NCBI GenBank assembly: GCA_947259295.1
Contig: CAMYMG010000067.1
Coordinates: 27,334 to 91,333, forward strand
DNA length: 64,000 nt
Source of the DNA: an uncultured Rhizobiaceae bacterium
GTDB lineage: Bacteria > Pseudomonadota > Alphaproteobacteria > Rhizobiales > Rhizobiaceae
Direction of reading: 5' to 3'
A program made the translations under genes and the position numbers. Each line of letters opens with the position of its first letter. Within the stretch, counting starts at the first letter, position 1. Positions 3,580 through 15,552 of the stretch are shown in pieces. The notes beneath the pieces are model-generated. The model saw only the letters and a program-made list of their open reading frames with translations. It did not search any database and was not told where the DNA came from.

Positions 3580-4914
3580 CTAGGCTGCGCGGGGTGCCTC
3601 GCTGAATTCGACCGCCCTGCCCCGGCCGGCCGAAACGATCTCGCCTTCCCACATGACCCGCTCGCCGCGCACCACGGTGCCGACCGGCCAGCCGGTGACG
3701 CGCTTGCCGTCATAGGGCGTCCAGCCGGCCTTCGAGCCGGCCTGCGCATTGGTGATGGTCTCTGCGCGCTTCATGTCGACGATGGTGAAATCGGCATCGT
3801 AGCCGGCGGCGATGCGGCCCTTGCGGGCGATGCCGAAGATGCGGTTGGGACCGTGGCTCGACAGGTCGACGAAGCGCTCGAGCGTCAGGCGGCCGGCATT
3901 CACATGGTCGAGCATGATCGGCACCAGCGTCTGCACGCCGGTCATGCCGGAGGGCGAGGCCGGATATTCCTTGCGCTTCTCCTCCAGCGTGTGCGGAGCG
4001 TGGTCGGATCCCAGCACGTCGACGATGCCCTGCGAAATGCCGTGCCAGACGCCGTCGCGGTGGCGCGGCGCGCGAACCGGCGGGTTCATCTGGATCAGCG
4101 TGCCGAGGCGGGCATAGTCGTCGGACGTCAGCGTGAGGTGATGCGGAGTCGCCTCGCAGGTGACGAGGTCCTTGTGCTGTTCGAGGAACGGGATCTCCTC
4201 GGCGGTCGAGATGTGCAGGACATGGATGCGGGCGCGGGTCTGCCGGGCGATGCGGACCAGGCGTTCGGTGCAGCGCAGCGCCGCGATCTCGTCGCGCCAT
4301 ACGGGATGGGAGGACGGGTCGCCGGCGATACGCTCGCCGAGGCGCTCGCGCAGGCGGAACTCGTCCTCGGAATGAAAGGCGGCGCGGCGCTTGGTGTTGC
4401 GCAGGATCGCGGCGACGCCCTCGTCGTCCTCGACAAGCAGGTCGCCTGTCGACGAGCCCATGAAGACCTTGATGCCGGCAGCACCCGGCAGGCGCTCGAG
4501 TTCACCGACGTCGGCGGCGTTGTCGCGCGTGCCGCCGACCCAGAAGGCGAAGTCGCAATGCATGCGGCCGGTGGCGCGGGCGACCTTGTCGGCGAGCGTC
4601 GCCTCGCTGGTGGTCAGCGGGTTGGTGTTCGGCATCTCGAAGACGGCCGTGACGCCGCCGAGTACGGCGGCGCGCGAGCCGCTTTCGAGATCCTCCTTGT
4701 GCTCGAGCCCGGGCTCGCGGAAATGCACCTGGCTGTCGATGACGCCCGGCAGGACGTGCAGGCCGCGACAGTCGATCGTCGCGCCCGAGGAGGCGGCAGA
4801 AAGATCGCCAATGGCGGCGATGCGCCCGTCCCTCACGCCGACATCGCGCCGGCCCTGGCCGTCATGGTTGACCACCGTGCCGCCTGTCAGGATGAGATCG
4901 TAGGTCGCCGCCAT
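3580..4914 (-). CDS. pyrC: Dihydroorotase
   Basis: Metal motif DSQVHFREPG, FMGSSTGDLLVEDD, GSDHAPHT; start chosen at MAATYDLILTGG. Confidence 0.92.
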   Translation of the reverse strand: MAATYDLILTGGTVVNHDGQGRRDVGVRDGRIAAIGDLSAASSGATIDCRGLHVLPGVIDSQVHFREPGLEHKEDLESGSRAAVLGGVTAVFEMPNTNPLTTSEATLADKVARATGRMHCDFAFWVGGTRDNAADVGELERLPGAAGIKVFMGSSTGDLLVEDDEGVAAILRNTKRRAAFHSEDEFRLRERLGERIAGDPSSHPVWRDEIAALRCTERLVRIARQTRARIHVLHISTAEEIPFLEQHKDLVTCEATPHHLTLTSDDYARLGTLIQMNPPVRAPRHRDGVWHGISQGIVDVLGSDHAPHTLEEKRKEYPASPSGMTGVQTLVPIMLDHVNAGRLTLERFVDLSSHGPNRIFGIARKGRIAAGYDADFTIVDMKRAETITNAQAGSKAGWTPYDGKRVTGWPVGTVVRGERVMWEGEIVSAGRGRAVEFSEAPRAA

Positions 4915-4996
4915 GCTGTCCTGCCGCCCTTGTGTGGAGAGTGCCCGCGGCTTACGTAAAGCCCGACCATATTGCAAGATCAGGCCGCCCCGACCC

Positions 4997-5857
4997 ATGC
5001 CCACCGCCCTCCTCCCCGACCGCGCGATCATCACCGTTTCAGGCGCTGAGGCCGAGGCGTTCCTGCAGAACATCATCACCTCCGACCTCGACGCGCTTGG
5101 GCCGGCGCAGGCGCAGCCCTCCGCGCTCCTCACCCCGCAGGGCAAGATCCTGTTCGATTTCCTCATCTCCCGGGAGACCGAACAGAGCCTGACGATCGAG
5201 TGCCGGGCCGATATCGCCGACGATCTCGTGCGCCGGCTGATGCTTTACCGGCTGCGTGCCAAGGTCGAGATTTCCAAGCAGGATCAGGCGACTGTCTCGG
5301 TTTCGTGGCAAGACGATTCAGCTGCCTCACAATCCGATTCAGGCGGGCTGCGCGACCTGCGGTTTGCCCCGCCTGTCGAGGTCCGGCGCTTTCACGAGGC
5401 GCGGGCGGTGGATGCGGAGGTGGCCGAGTGGACGGCATTCCGGATCGCCAATGGCGTTGCCGAGAGCGGCAGCGACTACGCGCTGGCAGACGCCTTTCCG
5501 CATGACGTGCTGCTCGATGAGGTCGGCGGCGTCGGTTTCCGCAAGGGCTGTTATGTCGGCCAGGAAGTGGTGTCGCGTATGCAGCATCGCGGCACGGCGC
5601 GGCGGCGGGTACTGATCGTCAGCGGCGACGGTGACCTGCCGGCGCCGGGCGTCGACATCGCGGCGGGCGGGCGCAGCATCGGCACGCTGGGCTCGACTGC
5701 AGGCAGGTCGGGGCTGGCGATCGTTCGCATCGACCGAGCCAAGGACGCAATGGATGCCGGCACGGCGATCACCGCCGGGGAGACGGCCGTGACGCTCAGA
5801 ATACCGGCTTTCGCCAAGTTCACCTACCCCGTGTCGGCCGCCGAGGGCGAAGGCTGA
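4997..5857 (+). CDS. ygfZ: Folate-binding protein YgfZ/GcvT-like
   Basis: KGCYVGQEVVSRMQHRG signature. Confidence 0.92.
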   Translation: MPTALLPDRAIITVSGAEAEAFLQNIITSDLDALGPAQAQPSALLTPQGKILFDFLISRETEQSLTIECRADIADDLVRRLMLYRLRAKVEISKQDQATVSVSWQDDSAASQSDSGGLRDLRFAPPVEVRRFHEARAVDAEVAEWTAFRIANGVAESGSDYALADAFPHDVLLDEVGGVGFRKGCYVGQEVVSRMQHRGTARRRVLIVSGDGDLPAPGVDIAAGGRSIGTLGSTAGRSGLAIVRIDRAKDAMDAGTAITAGETAVTLRIPAFAKFTYPVSAAEGEG

Positions 5858-6495
5858 TGCCGGACAAGGCCGGCGCACCGCCCCGCGCCTGGCAGCGCAT
5901 GCTGTCGGGGCGGCGGCTCGACCTTCTCGACCCGTCGCCGCTCGACGTTGAGATTTCCGACATCGCGCACGGACTGGCGCGCGTCGCGCGCTGGAACGGG
6001 CAGACGCATGGCGACCATGCCTTCTCGGTGGCGCAGCACTCGCTGCTGGTCGAGGACATCTTCCTTGCACGTGTGGCCGATGCCTCGCCCGATGCGCGGC
6101 TGGCGGCTCTGCTGCACGACGCCCCGGAATATGTGATCGGCGACATGATCTCGCCATTCAAGTCGGCAGTCGGTGGCGGCTACAAGGCCGTGGAGCAGCG
6201 GTTGCAGCGGGCGATCCATCTGCGCTTCGCGCTGGCTGCCGAGACGAGTGCCGCGCTGAAGAAACAGATCAAGCAGGCCGACCAGATCGCCGCCTATTTC
6301 GAGGCGACGGTACTGGCCGGATTTTCCGTCGCCGAGGCGACACGCTTCTTCGGCCGGCCGAGCGGCATCTCGCCGGACCGCTTCGACCTCTCCTGCAAGC
6401 CGGCGAAGCTGGCGCAGAGCGAGTTCCTCGAGCGTTTCGCGGCCATCGAAAAACTCCGGCCGGAAGCCGGAGGGCAAAGGCCGGCCGTCGCCTGA
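5857..6495 (+). CDS. HD-domain phosphohydrolase (YfbR-like)
   Basis: FSVAQHSLLVEDI...LHDAPEYVIGDMISPFK; overlaps the ygfZ stop by 1 nt. Confidence 0.85.
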   Translation: MPDKAGAPPRAWQRMLSGRRLDLLDPSPLDVEISDIAHGLARVARWNGQTHGDHAFSVAQHSLLVEDIFLARVADASPDARLAALLHDAPEYVIGDMISPFKSAVGGGYKAVEQRLQRAIHLRFALAAETSAALKKQIKQADQIAAYFEATVLAGFSVAEATRFFGRPSGISPDRFDLSCKPAKLAQSEFLERFAAIEKLRPEAGGQRPAVA

Positions 6496-6496
6496 G

Positions 6497-8494
6497 CTAT
6501 TTGCGCTTCAGGCGCATCGCCGGCAGCCCGGGCAGAGCCATGGAGGCCGCGGGCGGGGATGCGACCACGTCGGGCTGGACTTGCTGCAGACCGAAGCCCA
6601 GCGGCCGCTTGGTCGCAACGCCATCGGCAATGTGCAGAACGCTGTCATAGAACTCGGCGCCGCTGAGCGACTTCGGCGGCGTGCCCTCGTGCATCACGCT
6701 GATGACCGTGACATTGGGACAATTGTCCTTGATGGCCTGGTGGAAGGCGACCTTGGCTTCCGGGTCGAGCGCGCCGGTAGCCTCATCTAGGAAGAGCAGC
6801 GCCGGCTGCTGCAGGAGGATACGGGCGACGACCAGCTTCTGCTTCTGGCCGCCCGACAGGACCTGGTCCCAGACCTTGCCCTCACGGTCCTCGTCGCCGA
6901 GATGCTCGATGAATTCGCCAAGGCCTGCCTTGTGCAGCATTGCCGCGACGCTGGCGTCGGTGTGGTCCTCAGCCGCGTCGGGCAGGCAAACGAGTTGCTT
7001 CAGCGTGATCTGGGGCAGCTTGACGTCCTGCGCGGCATAGAAGCAGCGGGCGCGCTCGGGGAAGATGATGTCGCCGCCGCCGTGCGGCCACAGGCCGTTA
7101 ATCGCCTTGATGAGCGAGGTCTTGCCGCAGCCCGACTCACCCTTGACGTAGGTCCACTCGCCGCGCCGGAAGCGCAGGTTCGGGACCGTCAGGAACGGCG
7201 TCGTGTCGTCGCCCTGATGCAAGAGTTCGAGATCGCGGACGACCAGGCCGAAGACGGCATTCTGGCTGCCATAGCGGAAGTCGCAGCGCCCGGTGGCGCT
7301 GTAGAAGTCGCGCGGCTGCTGAACCCTTTCGATGGCCTGCGCGAGGCCGGTGACGCGCCGCGCATTGGCCTTGAGGCTGGCGATCGCCGGCATCACATGG
7401 ATGAACCAGGAGCACTGGCTGATCAGCGAATTGACCAGTTCGGCGCCGGTTATGTAGCCCTTGAGGCTGATGCGATCATTGACATAGGGCAGCAGGCCGG
7501 GGCCATAGGCGACGATGCGGGCGGCGAGGAAATTGTAGATCAGCTCGAACGACATGTAGCCGGAGTGGACCCAGTTGAGCTTGGTCCAGGTGCCGTCGAT
7601 TTCACGGTAGAGCTTCGAATGGATGCCGGTCTGCACAGCCTCGCCGCGCGAGGCGGCGACGTGGAAGCTGCGGCGCAGGAAGGTCGTCAGTTCGGCGCGG
7701 TAGCTGCCTTCGGCCCGCTGCATGGCGATGGTCAGCCGCTCCAGGATGCCGCCGAGCTTCATGGCGACGAAGGTGTTGAGCGGCACGTAGAAGGCGACGG
7801 CCGTGAAGGCCAGGACGGCACCGCCATAGGTGCCGAGGAACTCGAGGCCGCCGACAACCGTCGAGGTCTCGATGAGCTTGCGGCCGACGAAATAGAGCGA
7901 GGTGACGACGCCCATGACGCCCATTGCGAGGCCGATGGCGCCACCGGTCATGCCCTTGATCGATTCCTGCACGCGCTGGTCGACATTGTCGGGCGGCGGC
8001 AGGGTCGAGCCGTCCGGGGCGCGGCTGGCGTGCTGGAGGTGGTAGTGGGTGTGATTGCCGTCGAGCAGGGCGCGATTGAAGCGGCCATTCAGCCAGCGGC
8101 GCCATTTGCGGTGCAGGGTGGTGGAGAACAGGTGCCTGACACCGGTGATGCCGGCATCCTTGAGCACGACCAGCAGGACAAGCATTCCGGCGCTGGTGAG
8201 AACCGAGGAAAGCGGCGTGGCGTTTCCCGGGTCGTGGAAGTAGGCGATGGAATTGACCAGTTCGCCGGAGGCTTCGGCCATCCAGACACTGGTCTTGCTG
8301 GCGGCCGCCGTGAACAGGGCGATGATTGCCGTCAGCGCCCAGGCTTCCTTCCAGCTCTCCGAGAACCAGTAGGCCCGCATCAGACCCCAGAAGCCCTGCA
8401 TGGAGGACACTGCCGTCAATTGCGGCGGCCCTCGCCTGCGGCCTAGCCTGTCGACAAGTGCCTGCCAGGGCCCCTCGACAAAGGCCCGAATCAC
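6497..8494 (-). CDS. ABC transporter, fused permease/ATPase, ABCD/BacA-related (ABC_membrane_2 type)
   Basis: N-terminal multi-TM domain, Walker A GESGCGKTS, signature LSGGQKQKL, Walker B ALLFLDEATGALD; GTG start. Confidence 0.88.
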   Translation of the reverse strand: MIRAFVEGPWQALVDRLGRRRGPPQLTAVSSMQGFWGLMRAYWFSESWKEAWALTAIIALFTAAASKTSVWMAEASGELVNSIAYFHDPGNATPLSSVLTSAGMLVLLVVLKDAGITGVRHLFSTTLHRKWRRWLNGRFNRALLDGNHTHYHLQHASRAPDGSTLPPPDNVDQRVQESIKGMTGGAIGLAMGVMGVVTSLYFVGRKLIETSTVVGGLEFLGTYGGAVLAFTAVAFYVPLNTFVAMKLGGILERLTIAMQRAEGSYRAELTTFLRRSFHVAASRGEAVQTGIHSKLYREIDGTWTKLNWVHSGYMSFELIYNFLAARIVAYGPGLLPYVNDRISLKGYITGAELVNSLISQCSWFIHVMPAIASLKANARRVTGLAQAIERVQQPRDFYSATGRCDFRYGSQNAVFGLVVRDLELLHQGDDTTPFLTVPNLRFRRGEWTYVKGESGCGKTSLIKAINGLWPHGGGDIIFPERARCFYAAQDVKLPQITLKQLVCLPDAAEDHTDASVAAMLHKAGLGEFIEHLGDEDREGKVWDQVLSGGQKQKLVVARILLQQPALLFLDEATGALDPEAKVAFHQAIKDNCPNVTVISVMHEGTPPKSLSGAEFYDSVLHIADGVATKRPLGFGLQQVQPDVVASPPAASMALPGLPAMRLKRK

Positions 8495-8594
8495 AATCTT
8501 TCCACCCTATGGCCCCTTTTTGGACACAAAGGTAGCACGATTCGGCGTCGCCCGAAGTTGCATCAAGGGCATCTTTTCATTTGGTGAATCGCTG

Positions 8595-8622
8595 TGGCCG
8601 ATCTGCACTGCAGCTTCGGCCA
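8595..8622 (-). terminator. Hairpin between the ATP-grasp gene and the ABC transporter gene
   Basis: TGGCCGA...TCGGCCA with inner CTGC-act-GCAG; no T-run afterwards, so a weak terminator or processing structure. Confidence 0.35.
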
Positions 8623-8637
8623 GCCATCCCAGACCGG

Positions 8638-10101
8638 CTAGCGGCCCTGCCGCTCCAGGCGGTCGAGGAACCATTGCGTCAGCCGGGTCCAGACCTCGTC
8701 CTTCTCGCCGGCATCCTCGCAGCCATGGTCGAGGTTGGGGTTGTCGTTGACCTCGATGACGAAGACGCCGTCGGCAGTCTCCTTGAGATCGACGCCGTAG
8801 AGCCCGTCCCCGATGCAGCGCGCGGCGCGCACCGCGGTCTCGACGACGAGCGGCGGCGCCTCCTTCAGGGTGAAGGGCTTGAAGCCGCCCTGCACGGGCT
8901 TGCCGCCCGGCCGGTGGTTGACGATCTGCCAGTGCTGCTTGGCCATCAGATAGTGGACGGCAAAGAGCGGCTGGCCGCCGAGCACGCCGACCCGCCAGTC
9001 ATATTCGGTCGGCATGTATTTCTGCGCGATCAGGAGGTCGGAGTCCTCCAGCCACTGGGTGGCAAGCGCGCGCAGTTCCTCGAAGCTCGAGGCCTTCTTG
9101 ACGCCGCGCGAGAAGGCGCTGTCGGGAATCTTCAGGACCAGCGGGAAACCGAGCGTCTGGGCGGCGACCTCGAAGTCGGCGGGACTGGCGATCATCACCG
9201 TCGGCGGCACCGGCACCTTGTTGTAGGCCATCAGTTCGTTGAGATAGACCTTGTTGGTGCAGCGGATCATCGACAGCGGGTCGTCGATGACCGGCATGCC
9301 TTCCTGCTGGGCGCGCCTGGCGAAGCGGTAGGTATGGTTGGAGATCGAGGTGGTCTCGCGGATGAACAGCGCGTCGTAATTGGCGAGCTTGGCGAGATCC
9401 TTCCTGGTGATCGGCTCGACCTCGACGCCCATCTTCTCGGCAATGCGGGCCCAGTGGCGCAGCGAGGAGATGGCCGAGGGCGGCAGTTCCTCCTGCGGGT
9501 CGACCAGCGTGGCGAAGGTGTAGCGTGCCGGCGTGCGGGTCTTGGTGTCGCGCCATTCGCGGCTGGTGTAGGTCTCGAGGCTGGAGATGAAGCGCGCCTC
9601 GTCTTCCCCGCTCAGCCGGATGACCGGCAGGAAGGCTATCTTGCGGATCGAGGCCCATTGGCCGTCATCGCGAACCGAGACTTCCAGCGAGGGGGCGCGG
9701 AACCAGTCGAACAGCAGCCGCGCAAAACGATCCCAGGCCTTGGAGGGGCCGATGCCGAAGAAAAAGGATGCCTTGGCCGGGAATTCGCCGCCGAGTTCCT
9801 TGCGGCACTTGTTGAGCGCCAGTTCCAGTTCAGGCAGCGCGTTCTGGTAGAGCTTGGGCTCCGACAGGTCGATGATGGTCTCGACGCTCGGGATGACCTT
9901 GTGGCCGCGCGAACTGGCAAGCAGCGAGGCGTAGTAGCCGCGGCTCTGGTAGCCGTAGCTGTTGGACAGGTTGATGACCTTGGGGCGCTGGCCGCGAAAG
10001 AGTGCCGGATGGGCGAGATAGTCGCGGTTGGTGATGATCTTGTGCGGCGTGGCGACCTGGTCGAGATCGCTCTGCCTGCCGGTGAGGATGACCCAGCTCA
10101 T
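8638..10101 (-). CDS. RimK-like ATP-grasp ligase with N-terminal extension (RLAN-type)
   Basis: ATP-grasp motifs NKVYLNELM, FPLVLKIPDSAFSRGVKK, YGVDLKETADGVFVIEVNDNPNLDHGCED; about 200-residue N-terminal domain. Confidence 0.88.
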   Translation of the reverse strand: MSWVILTGRQSDLDQVATPHKIITNRDYLAHPALFRGQRPKVINLSNSYGYQSRGYYASLLASSRGHKVIPSVETIIDLSEPKLYQNALPELELALNKCRKELGGEFPAKASFFFGIGPSKAWDRFARLLFDWFRAPSLEVSVRDDGQWASIRKIAFLPVIRLSGEDEARFISSLETYTSREWRDTKTRTPARYTFATLVDPQEELPPSAISSLRHWARIAEKMGVEVEPITRKDLAKLANYDALFIRETTSISNHTYRFARRAQQEGMPVIDDPLSMIRCTNKVYLNELMAYNKVPVPPTVMIASPADFEVAAQTLGFPLVLKIPDSAFSRGVKKASSFEELRALATQWLEDSDLLIAQKYMPTEYDWRVGVLGGQPLFAVHYLMAKQHWQIVNHRPGGKPVQGGFKPFTLKEAPPLVVETAVRAARCIGDGLYGVDLKETADGVFVIEVNDNPNLDHGCEDAGEKDEVWTRLTQWFLDRLERQGR

Positions 10102-11204
10102 GTCGCCCCTGGCTTTCCGAGGATGATGGCGGCGCGCAGACCGTCGCGGCCGAACTGCGCCATCTGCATGAAGATGTCGTAGGGAACCGGGACGTTGGCA
10201 GCGTCCGAGATGGTCTCGCGGCGTTCGTCCTCGATCCAGGGGTCGTGCATGAGGATGTGGCTGCCGTCGTCGCCAATGGCCAGCACCCAGTGTGGAACCT
10301 TCTTCCCGAACATCAGATATCCGCTGATCAGCACGACAACGAGTTTCCCCGCCGCCAGCGCGGCACGAATATCGTCGATTGAGAACGAGCGATAATGGAC
10401 GGGAATGTTGTATTGTTCCGCTCGGGTCCGGAAATCGACCTGCGCCAGTTCCATGACGCGACGCTTCTCCTCGCTACGCACCGACTGCAGGAAAAGCGCA
10501 CCGTAGAATGAGACGAAGAGCTCGGCCGAGAGACCGTTCTCATGCGCCGCCACGCCCAGCCCGAAAGGCTCGCAGCCGCCGGTGCCCGACATCATGAAGA
10601 CCGTCGTCGCCTCGCGCCACAGCCGGATCTCGCGGATGGCGTCCGGCACGAAACTCCGGTCGTAATTGGCCATCGCCATCATCAGGCAGCAGGGGCCGCA
10701 CGTGAAGTCACAGGTCTGTTCGTAAAACGGCACCTTCGTGCCGACCGGCACGTCGCCGCGCAGCGTCTTCTCGTAGCGCAGCGCCGCCATGCCGTCTTCG
10801 TAGTAGTCGGTCTCGCGACCGATCCTGCGGTAGCCGTTCTGTTCGTAAAGCCGGATGGCGCGGGTATTGTCCTCGCGTACCTCTAGACGCAGCATCATGC
10901 GGCCATGGTCGTAAGCAACACGCTCGGCTCGCTCCAACAGGAACCGGCCAAGGCCGAGCCCGGAAAAGTCACGGCCGATGGCGAAGGAATAGAGGCGCGC
11001 AACGCCGCTGCCGTTGCGAAACAGGATCATCGCGTAGCCGGCGAGCCGGCCGTCCTTTTCGGCAACCAGCGTCTCGGCGGTCTCGCGCTCGATCAGTTGC
11101 CGGAACGAGCGGCGCGAGATCCGATCGGTGTCGTATACATCGTTTTCGAGCGCCACGAGGGCGTCGACGTCAGACGCGCGGGCAGTTCGGATTTCGGCGG
11201 ACAT
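10098..11204 (-). CDS. GNAT acetyltransferase fused to C39-like papain-fold domain (DUF3335-type)
   Basis: RimI-like GNAT (GLGLGRFLLERAERVA...LEVREDNTRAIRLYEQNGY) then QTCDFTCGPCCLMMAM (Cys), VPHWVLAIGD (His) and HDPW (Asp); ATGA overlap with the ATP-grasp gene. Confidence 0.88.
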   Translation of the reverse strand: MSAEIRTARASDVDALVALENDVYDTDRISRRSFRQLIERETAETLVAEKDGRLAGYAMILFRNGSGVARLYSFAIGRDFSGLGLGRFLLERAERVAYDHGRMMLRLEVREDNTRAIRLYEQNGYRRIGRETDYYEDGMAALRYEKTLRGDVPVGTKVPFYEQTCDFTCGPCCLMMAMANYDRSFVPDAIREIRLWREATTVFMMSGTGGCEPFGLGVAAHENGLSAELFVSFYGALFLQSVRSEEKRRVMELAQVDFRTRAEQYNIPVHYRSFSIDDIRAALAAGKLVVVLISGYLMFGKKVPHWVLAIGDDGSHILMHDPWIEDERRETISDAANVPVPYDIFMQMAQFGRDGLRAAIILGKPGAT

Positions 11205-12760: not shown

Positions 12761-15457
12761 TCAACCGGCGCGGGCGGCGCGCGTCAGCAGCTTCTGGTAG
12801 AACAGGCCGATGCCGATCAGCACGACGCCCAGCCCGATGAAGGACAGCGCGCGCAGCACGCCTTCGAGCGCCGACATGTCGAAGATGAAGACTTTCGCGA
12901 CGGCGACGGAGATCAGCACCGCCGAGGCGATGCGCATGATGTGGGATTTCAGCGCGACACCCGCCACCAAGAGAGCGACGCCCATCGCCAGCCACAGCGC
13001 GGAATAGGAGTAGGTCTCGAGCTGACCCATGCCCGCCCAGGCGCCGATATGCTCGCCCTGGAAGAGCCGCCTGACCGACAGCGTGGCGTAGGCGAAGAGC
13101 AGCACCGAGGCGAGCAAGGCGAGCATTGCCGAATACCAGCGCGGCCGTTTTCCGCGAGCGTAGAGCGCCAGCGCGCCGGCGGCGATGGCAGGCAGCAGAT
13201 AGGCGAGGAACAGAAGGTTGAAGAAGGGAATGCGGCCGGTCGATTCGTTGGTCGCCAGCGGATTGAGGAAGATGAAGTGCTGCAGCCCGATGAGGGCCAC
13301 GGAGACGATGCCCGCGGCCATCGAGCCGAAGCGCAGGAAGAGGCTTGGCGACCTCGTGTCGAGGGCCAGCAGGATGCCGCCGGCGCCGAGCGCGATCAGC
13401 GTGTAGAGCGACTGCTCGGCAAGGCTGGGCGTACCGGTGGTGATGACGCCGCCGTTCATGGCGTGCCTGACCAGCATGGCCAGCGCCAGCAGGGCAAAAA
13501 GCGTCGCTCCTGCTTCCATGACCAGCCTCGGGGCGCCGCCGGTGGTGCGGGCCAGCTGCCAGGCGGCAAAACCGAAGGCCAGCGCCGGCACGCCGTAGCC
13601 GGGCAGCAGGGCGTTGAAGACCGGCGTGCGCCCCAGCAGGTCAGCGCCGACGAGTGTCGGGTCGATTGCGACCCGGGCCATGACCACCACGACCAATGCG
13701 GCGCAGATCCAGCCAAGCACGGAATAGCTGCGCCGGCGCGTGGCGAGCGCCGGGAGGATCGCGGCGGCGCCGGTGAGCATCGTCGTCCAGAGCGGGCCGA
13801 GACCCATGTGCAGCATCAGAACGGCGGCGATGGCCGCAGCTGCCAGGGGGAGCGAGACGGCAAGGCTTCCCTGCAGCGGCGGCACTTCGCGGCGTGCGAT
13901 GCGTTCGGCCGCCGCAACCAGCACGACCGACAGGACGAGCGTGGCGAACGCTTCCGTCACGTCGCGGTCAAGATTGCCGAAGGCGATCCAGTGCGCGGCG
14001 AGCGCCGCCAGCGGGACCATGGCGCCCCAGCCGGACCAGGCGGCTGCGCGGTGCGGCCATACGGCGACGAAGCGTGCGGCCTGCCAGAAGCCGGCGATCA
14101 GGAAAACAAGCGCGATGACGGCGCCGACCGGCTGAAGCATCGCGCTGTAGGGCAGGACCGAAACGCCGTCGAGCATGAACTCGCCGCCGAAGACGCGCAG
14201 GGTGAAGGTTCCCTGCATGGCAATGCGTAGCGACACCAGCAGCGCGGCGATGCCGGCGGCGTGAAGCATCGGCAGGGCCGGCGTGCGGAGGACGGCGACC
14301 AGCAGCATGGCGGCGAGCAGCAGGCCGCCGCCATAGGCCCCGCCCGACAGTTGCAGTTCCGGGTCGATGAGCAATTGAACCGACACCAGCGCGACAAAGA
14401 AGGCTGCAACCGCGGGGGCAACGTCCATCCGCGCCGGCTCGCCGCCGCGGCGAGAGAGCCAGATCAGCGCGCAACAGGCCAAAATCACCGCATTGATGAA
14501 CAGCACGACCGGAAGGTCGATGCTGGCGGAATCGCCGATGTAGAGCAGGCACCAGAGTCCGGCGCCGGCAAAGCCGGCAGACGCGGTGAAGGTCCAGTCG
14601 CGCATCCTGGCAATGGCCGTGTTCGCGGCAAGCACGATCGCGAGGTAGCCGAACAGGGCCCATTCGCTCGGCGATTGCGAGGAAACAAGCGCAGGCGTCA
14701 GCATGGCGCCCAGGAGGCCGAGCCCGGCCAGCGCCTGTCCATGCACAAGCGCGGCGGCGATGGTGACGACGCCGACGAGGCCAAGCAGGGTGAAGGACAT
14801 CCCTGGACCGACGAAACCGTAGACACCGTGCGCGGCATAGATGGCGGCGAACAGGGTGAAGGCACCCGCCGCGGTGAGGATGCCCGGCACATAGGCGCCG
14901 GCGGCTCCCCTGATCGGCACCTTGAAGCCGGTGCGGCGGATGAATTCGCCGGCCGCCACCAGCGCCAGCCCCAGCAGGACTGCCATGGCGAGGCGCACAC
15001 CTGGACCAAACATGCCGGCCTCGATCGAATAGCGCACCAGGAAAAGGCCGCCGAGCGCCAGCGCGATGCCCCCGACCCACACCGCCCAGCGCGTGCCGAT
15101 CGCCGTTTCGATGTCGGCCGATTCCGCCGGGGGTTCCTTCGGCTTCGCCTCTGCCTCGGCCGCAAGTTTGGACGCCTCGACCTGGGCGGCATTGGTCCAC
15201 GGACCAGCCACGACAGGCTCCTGCTCTGTCGGCTCGGACGGTTTGTCGGCTGCGGTGGCAGCCTCTGCGGCTTCGACGCGGGCAGCCGTGACAACCGGCG
15301 GTTCGGTTGCGACCTCTTCCGCTGCGGCGTCGTTCAGGAGCAGCTTGAGGCGCAATTCGTCTACGGTCGCCTCGAGCTTTTCGATGCGGCGATACTGGCG
15401 CACCGCCGCGACGATCAGCGCGACGACGGCCAAAAAACCGAAAAAGCCTCCGAACAT
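12761..15457 (-). CDS. DUF2339 multi-TM membrane protein
   Basis: N-terminal coiled coil plus many TM helices; ATG at 15457 with GGGAG RBS preferred over upstream TTG. Confidence 0.82.
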   Translation of the reverse strand: MFGGFFGFLAVVALIVAAVRQYRRIEKLEATVDELRLKLLLNDAAAEEVATEPPVVTAARVEAAEAATAADKPSEPTEQEPVVAGPWTNAAQVEASKLAAEAEAKPKEPPAESADIETAIGTRWAVWVGGIALALGGLFLVRYSIEAGMFGPGVRLAMAVLLGLALVAAGEFIRRTGFKVPIRGAAGAYVPGILTAAGAFTLFAAIYAAHGVYGFVGPGMSFTLLGLVGVVTIAAALVHGQALAGLGLLGAMLTPALVSSQSPSEWALFGYLAIVLAANTAIARMRDWTFTASAGFAGAGLWCLLYIGDSASIDLPVVLFINAVILACCALIWLSRRGGEPARMDVAPAVAAFFVALVSVQLLIDPELQLSGGAYGGGLLLAAMLLVAVLRTPALPMLHAAGIAALLVSLRIAMQGTFTLRVFGGEFMLDGVSVLPYSAMLQPVGAVIALVFLIAGFWQAARFVAVWPHRAAAWSGWGAMVPLAALAAHWIAFGNLDRDVTEAFATLVLSVVLVAAAERIARREVPPLQGSLAVSLPLAAAAIAAVLMLHMGLGPLWTTMLTGAAAILPALATRRRSYSVLGWICAALVVVVMARVAIDPTLVGADLLGRTPVFNALLPGYGVPALAFGFAAWQLARTTGGAPRLVMEAGATLFALLALAMLVRHAMNGGVITTGTPSLAEQSLYTLIALGAGGILLALDTRSPSLFLRFGSMAAGIVSVALIGLQHFIFLNPLATNESTGRIPFFNLLFLAYLLPAIAAGALALYARGKRPRWYSAMLALLASVLLFAYATLSVRRLFQGEHIGAWAGMGQLETYSYSALWLAMGVALLVAGVALKSHIMRIASAVLISVAVAKVFIFDMSALEGVLRALSFIGLGVVLIGIGLFYQKLLTRAARAG

Positions 15458-15552
15458 GTGCTCCCTCAAGCCTTCATTCGTGAAGCCAGCCTAGCGGGAA
15501 CTTGCTAACATTATGGATATCAGGCCGGCGGCCCCACGGGGGTCGGCCCGGA

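Follow-up and report, generated by a model that had tools for sequence, protein, structure and literature searches.

NAGGN synthase (TIGR03103) joins a GNAT acetyltransferase to an ATP-grasp domain. Amidoligase neighbourhoods that combine RLAN ATP-grasp proteins with GNAT-papain proteins were reportedly predicted by Iyer et al. in 2009, and the preliminary description of the present locus rightly described them as a comparative-genomics prediction without a characterised substrate. The locus shares the domain families of that prediction, PF14401 and a GNAT fused to PF11814, and is an ordinary member of the predicted family with a transporter neighbour that is peculiar to its clade. Two observations appear to go beyond the 2009 prediction, namely the apparent exchange of the GNAT partner and the non-membership of the ABC transporter. 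A paper that cites Iyer et al. 2009 mentions GNAT-fused DUF3335 with a possible peptide-ligase role (PMC10318531), and the papain-fold families near C39 include the BtrH acyltransferase and phytochelatin synthase (PMC10318531). ATP-grasp proteins are also paired with proteases in RimK-RimB (PMC11957791) and in the rlo operon (PMC12239564). Our literature search on PF14401, PF11814, DUF3335, RLAN, and PA1345 found no function, characterised member, or experimental study. The ligase was present in 72/399 sampled Pseudomonadota genomes (about 18%), and no study of its product was found in this search.

The open reading frames of the window (the whole 64,000-nucleotide stretch analysed) include the three co-directional minus-strand genes that had been described. 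The first gene (10098-11204, minus strand, 368 aa) encodes a GNAT-C39-like fusion, with a RimI/Ard1-like acetyltransferase domain at residues 1-150 and a DUF3335 papain-fold domain at residues 158-362 that carries Q163, C169, H305, and D321. It is followed by the gene of the RLAN-domain RimK-like ATP-grasp ligase (8638-10101, minus strand, 487 aa), in which the RLAN domain (PF14401) occupies residues 26-172 and the ATP-grasp part, with the LysX/RimK/Ddl fold, residues from about 210 to 487. The ATGA stop/start overlap of these two genes was read in the sequence at 10098-10101 on the minus strand, as reported earlier, and the 143-nt gap between the ligase and ABC genes was likewise seen at 8495-8637 on the same strand. 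The third gene (6497-8494, minus strand, 665 aa, GTG start) encodes a fused permease-ATPase ABC transporter. The genome is a 4.1-Mb draft of 112 contigs, with one ligase and one DUF3335 gene. Among named relatives, a marine planktonic alphaproteobacterial MAG is closest, followed by Mesorhizobium and allied Hyphomicrobiales. Elsewhere in the window, a predicted DUF2339 membrane protein of 902 aa is encoded at 12761-15469.

In Pfam searches, the ligase matched the RLAN domain (E 3e-38, 131.4 bits vs. the cut-off of 25) and the RimK domain (E 5e-8, 33.2 bits vs. 21). Residues K284, K324, Q360, R370, D438, E450, N452, and N454 were invariant in all 47 sequences of an alignment that spans Pseudomonadota, the members of which are 36-87% identical to the ligase studied here. 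The ATP- and metal-binding residues were thus retained in 47/47 sequences, and the check for loss of the ATP-grasp motifs, proposed earlier to be intact, showed none. The best sequence relatives of the ligase were RimK and LysX. The C-terminal part of its structure model matched LysX/ArgX bound to LysW (5k2m, TM-score 0.81 by target), and the model also matched RimK and Ddl, over ~300 alignment columns in the PDB fold search. None of the best 50 matches corresponded to the RLAN domain. The C-terminal half of the ligase resembles RimK, the S6 glutamate ligase, and LysX/ArgX in fold and catalytic residues, but the ligase differs from them in its additional N-terminal RLAN domain and in missing all NCBIfam equivalog or subfamily cut-offs (LysX, 85.3 vs. 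275.6 bits; rimK_fam, 83.2 vs. 143.4 bits; PRK10446, 32.2 vs. 331 bits). The Pfam R2K_3 match of the ligase was also above its cut-off (33.8 vs. 26.3). In R2K.3 ATP-grasp proteins, an ExGD motif in the last strand replaces ExN (PMC4431377). In the ligase, this strand carries EVND instead of ExGD, both E450 and N452 are invariant, and the R2K.3 identity was rejected. Residues 387-403 (window about 8893-8943) form a low-confidence stretch in the structure model, which starts with AKxHWQIxxH, a start that is well conserved in sequence; this stretch is possibly a substrate loop.

The acetyltransferase domain of the first gene matched the Pfam GNAT family with E 9e-18, and the PDB fold search with its model returned RimI/Ard1 matches. 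Apart from the ligase stretch at 387-403, the predicted structures were confident, with a mean pLDDT of 92.6 for the GNAT-C39 protein and 90.2 for the ligase. Glu108 was kept in 137/138 ligase-linked GNAT partners and Tyr120 in 136/138. In the alignment with RimI, both residues fall in its LEVRxxN..LY segment, at the positions of its general base and general acid. The fold and this segment are common to the N-alpha-acetyltransferase RimI and the present domain. Unlike RimI, the latter carries a papain-fold domain, is linked to a ligase, and misses the equivalog cut-off of RimI as the S18-alanine acetyltransferase (TIGR01575, 77.6 vs. 86.4 bits).

The linkage of the GNAT to the ligase was the most constant feature of the neighbourhoods. 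A survey for co-occurrence upheld the pairing of the GNAT and ATP-grasp genes, with a GNAT linked to the ligase in 80/80 close loci and in 58/59 diverse loci (order, class, and phylum), counts that refer to a non-random sample with two loci from one genome. The genome of the single diverse locus that lacks a linked GNAT has a GNAT-C39 gene elsewhere. A 4-nt overlap of the GNAT and ligase genes was the usual arrangement in the 80 close loci (median gap -4 nt). In distant lineages, the two genes were often divergently oriented, which argues that the link is not merely an inherited operon order. GNAT and ligase are the constant core of the system. At locus L141, GNAT and ligase are encoded in one open frame, with a separate GNAT-C39 gene adjoining. 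In three species of one genus (G327, G674, and G677) the ligase frame spans 660-667 aa, and the one that was read, L141, has the GNAT domain at its start. The ligase occurs in a minority of genomes with a scattered distribution, and the analysis found no condition or phenotype associated with the system. On the P. aeruginosa plasmid pZYPA1927, where the plasmid alone was searched, an RLAN ligase gene (6902-8491) lies without an adjacent GNAT (L198). It adjoins an SDR gene and pagP, and the order looks chromosomal although it is on a plasmid. Judging by gene order, this RLAN gene is presumably the counterpart of P. aeruginosa PA1345. In one published listing, PA1345 appears as a hypothetical ATP-binding protein that has a Cpx-type site (PMC12802237).

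The association of the ABC transporter was far less constant. The gene product contains both ABC_membrane_2 (E 3e-15) and ABC_tran (E 4e-18) in a single frame, which agrees with the fused ABC architecture first described. Its closest solved structure, over residues 34-603, was 6tqe (Rv1819c). With Rv1819c/BacA-like transporters the protein shares a single-chain PF06472 permease and ATPase, but this likeness concerns the third gene only, which is not conserved with the other two. The preliminary description had suggested a single three-gene operon for peptide synthesis and transport, and this reading is consistent with their shared strand, with the lack of a terminator-like site in the 143-nt gap, and with the repetition of the gene order in four close loci. 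Yet the neighbourhood survey found the ABC gene 3′ of the ligase only here and at L042-L045 (4/80 close loci), with no wider adjacency. ABC orthologs of 66-70% identity are unlinked to the ligase in three ligase-bearing genomes, and two genomes without the ligase carry others of 58-67% identity. Because its orthologs lie elsewhere in the former and are present in the latter, the ABC gene is most likely a non-member. We consider the three-gene operon extremely improbable, and the transporter, rejected as a component, is probably outside the GNAT-ligase system. The proposed transport step was accordingly not supported, whereas the set of GNAT, papain-fold domain, and RLAN ligase was supported by linkage and intact residues. 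Nor was the hairpin that had been placed in the gap notable: positions 8495-8637 folded no better than shuffled sequences (z -0.65). On the 3′ side of the ABC gene, window positions 3580-6495 encode an amidohydrolase, a CAF17-like folate-binding protein, and a YfbR-like HD protein.

Apart from family synteny, the GNAT alone recurred beside the ligase in the 59 diverse loci, and no target or precursor gene did so. The pair is thus linked to no conserved gene for a protein target or precursor. Together with the analogy to NAGGN synthase, this makes a small, N-acetylated, peptide-like product the simplest reading. In NAGGN synthase (Ngg), GNAT and ATP-grasp domains cooperate, and in one lineage the present GNAT and ligase are likewise fused. 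By this analogy, the product of the pair is most likely N-acetylated and peptide-like. The NAGGN identity itself was rejected: the GNAT part scored far below the TIGR03103 cut-off (18.9 vs. 569 bits), and a true Ngg is encoded elsewhere in the same genome (G000:C36). As the genome has this separate NAGGN synthase, the pair does not belong to the NAGGN pathway and its product differs. Ngg was weakly co-distributed with the ligase (14/20 genomes with the ligase vs. 6/20 without; p 0.026, not corrected for kinship). The system is thereby narrowed to two proteins, with the transporter removed and NAGGN ruled out.

We tentatively favor a two-protein amide-bond-forming system that would make an N-acetylated, peptide-like small molecule, with the C39-like domain as an accessory and the ABC transporter outside the mechanism. 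The GNAT domain would acetylate an amino acid or short peptide at its alpha-amine, and the RLAN ATP-grasp protein would use ATP to activate a carboxylate as an acyl phosphate and join it to an amine. The C39-like domain, present in one type of GNAT partner only, may act on the product as an accessory hydrolase or acyltransferase in turnover or editing. The reactions, their order, and a small-molecule rather than protein product are what we infer. Points against this reading are the scattered occurrence of the ligase and the copy on pZYPA1927 that has no GNAT beside it.

The target could instead be a protein: RimK modifies one, and RimI/Ard1 relatives acetylate the N-termini of proteins. The ligase would then attach amino acids to a terminus or side chain of this protein, in the manner of RimK, the GNAT would cap the resulting tail, and the C39-like domain would remove it. 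This writer-eraser arrangement gains from the ligase, whose fold and best relatives point to the protein-acting RimK and LysX, from the N-alpha protein acetyltransferases among the GNAT relatives, and from the published ATP-grasp and protease pairs RimK-RimB (PMC11957791) and rlo (PMC12239564). However, the pair has no conserved gene for a target protein next to it, and about a quarter of loci would lack the eraser. By kinship and precedent, a protein target is a serious rival, though we hold this arrangement to be doubtful.

The DUF3335 (PF11814) match of the papain-fold domain reached E 8e-78 (261 bits vs. the Pfam cut-off of 25), whereas its score for C39 itself (PF03412, 17.4 bits) was below the cut-off of 22. 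Across the GNAT-C39 alignment of Pseudomonadota, Cys169, His305, and Gln163 were each conserved in 38/38 sequences and Asp321 in 37/38. The Cys/His/Asp triad proposed earlier therefore stands, and the check for catalytic loss revealed none of Cys or His. The best 50 matches in the PDB fold search with the two-domain GNAT-C39 model were all GNATs, with none to the papain-fold part. DUF3335 occurred in 13/20 ligase-bearing vs. 0/20 ligase-lacking genomes (Fisher p 1e-5, not corrected for kinship). The ABC protein gave no C39 peptidase match; the papain-fold domain sits on the GNAT instead, and the C39 peptidase-exporter class was rejected because the peptidase domain is fused to the GNAT and not to an ABC transporter.

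Graspetide ATP-grasp loci are accompanied by C39 peptidases and ABC exporters (PMC8939145), and this resemblance is what speaks for a RiPP-like tailoring system, in which ligase and GNAT would modify a ribosomal precursor, the C39-like domain would cut its leader, and the transporter would export the product. Against it, no graspetide/RiPP precursor gene or other ORF of at least 35 aa recurred beside the pair in the 59 diverse loci beyond family synteny, although a shorter or unlinked precursor may exist; the ABC gene is not conserved with the pair, and the peptidase is optional. Such tailoring is very unlikely. Alternatively, the papain-fold domain may be an acyl- or peptidyl-transferase like BtrH in butirosin synthesis, with the set making a conjugate rather than degrading one. 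The BtrH and phytochelatin synthase families near C39 (PMC10318531) and the invariant Cys and His, with a nearly invariant Asp, would suit this role, but no carrier-protein or acceptor-pathway gene recurs nearby and a lone GNAT can replace the whole fusion, so that we regard a transferase as unlikely. Within the favored two-protein system, the most fitting role of the papain-fold domain is an accessory one, in editing or turnover. The 138 linked partners comprised 105 GNAT-C39 proteins and 33 lone GNATs, and in 7/7 lone-GNAT genomes tested DUF3335 was absent altogether. It follows that peptidase trimming, a step suggested earlier, is not obligatory. In a more distant genome (G354), a lone GNAT lies beside the ligase and a GNAT-C39 gene elsewhere.

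The two GNAT types were distributed differently on the two protein trees. On the ligase tree, the partner state changed at least 21 times, with 15 changes forced by well-supported branches. On the GNAT tree, it changed 3 times, vs. 27 in shuffles, and twice in a smaller, more careful tree. At sister loci with ligases 92-94% identical, the GNATs were 55-57% identical if their types differed and 85% if they were the same. That near-identical ligases lie beside GNATs so dissimilar suggests repeated exchange of the partner instead of trimming. An origin of lone GNATs by simple deletion of the C39 domain is similarly disfavoured by GNAT identities of 48-62% between loci with ligases 75-94% identical. 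In AU tests of groups picked after the trees were seen, a placement of the lone GNAT among its ligase sisters was rejected marginally (p 0.038 and 0.047), and a single clade of lone GNATs was not rejected (p 0.59). Beside a persisting ligase, one GNAT type was apparently swapped for the other, or an ancestral pair of the two underwent differential loss. Lone GNATs may also evolve faster, with long-branch attraction yielding the apparent exchange. It is conceivable, if speculative, that the RLAN ligase marks an uncharacterised N-acetylated-peptide pathway, separate from that of NAGGN, in which one conserved ligase works with two exchangeable GNAT types, of which a single one has the papain-fold domain, and the exchanges alter the editing or degradation of the product. 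Natural pairs of loci that are nearly identical but differ in the papain-fold domain lend themselves to testing the role of this domain. In one 6.2-Mb genome (G397), two sister ligases that are 75% identical (L150 and L151) occur together, one with a GNAT-C39 partner and the other with a lone GNAT.
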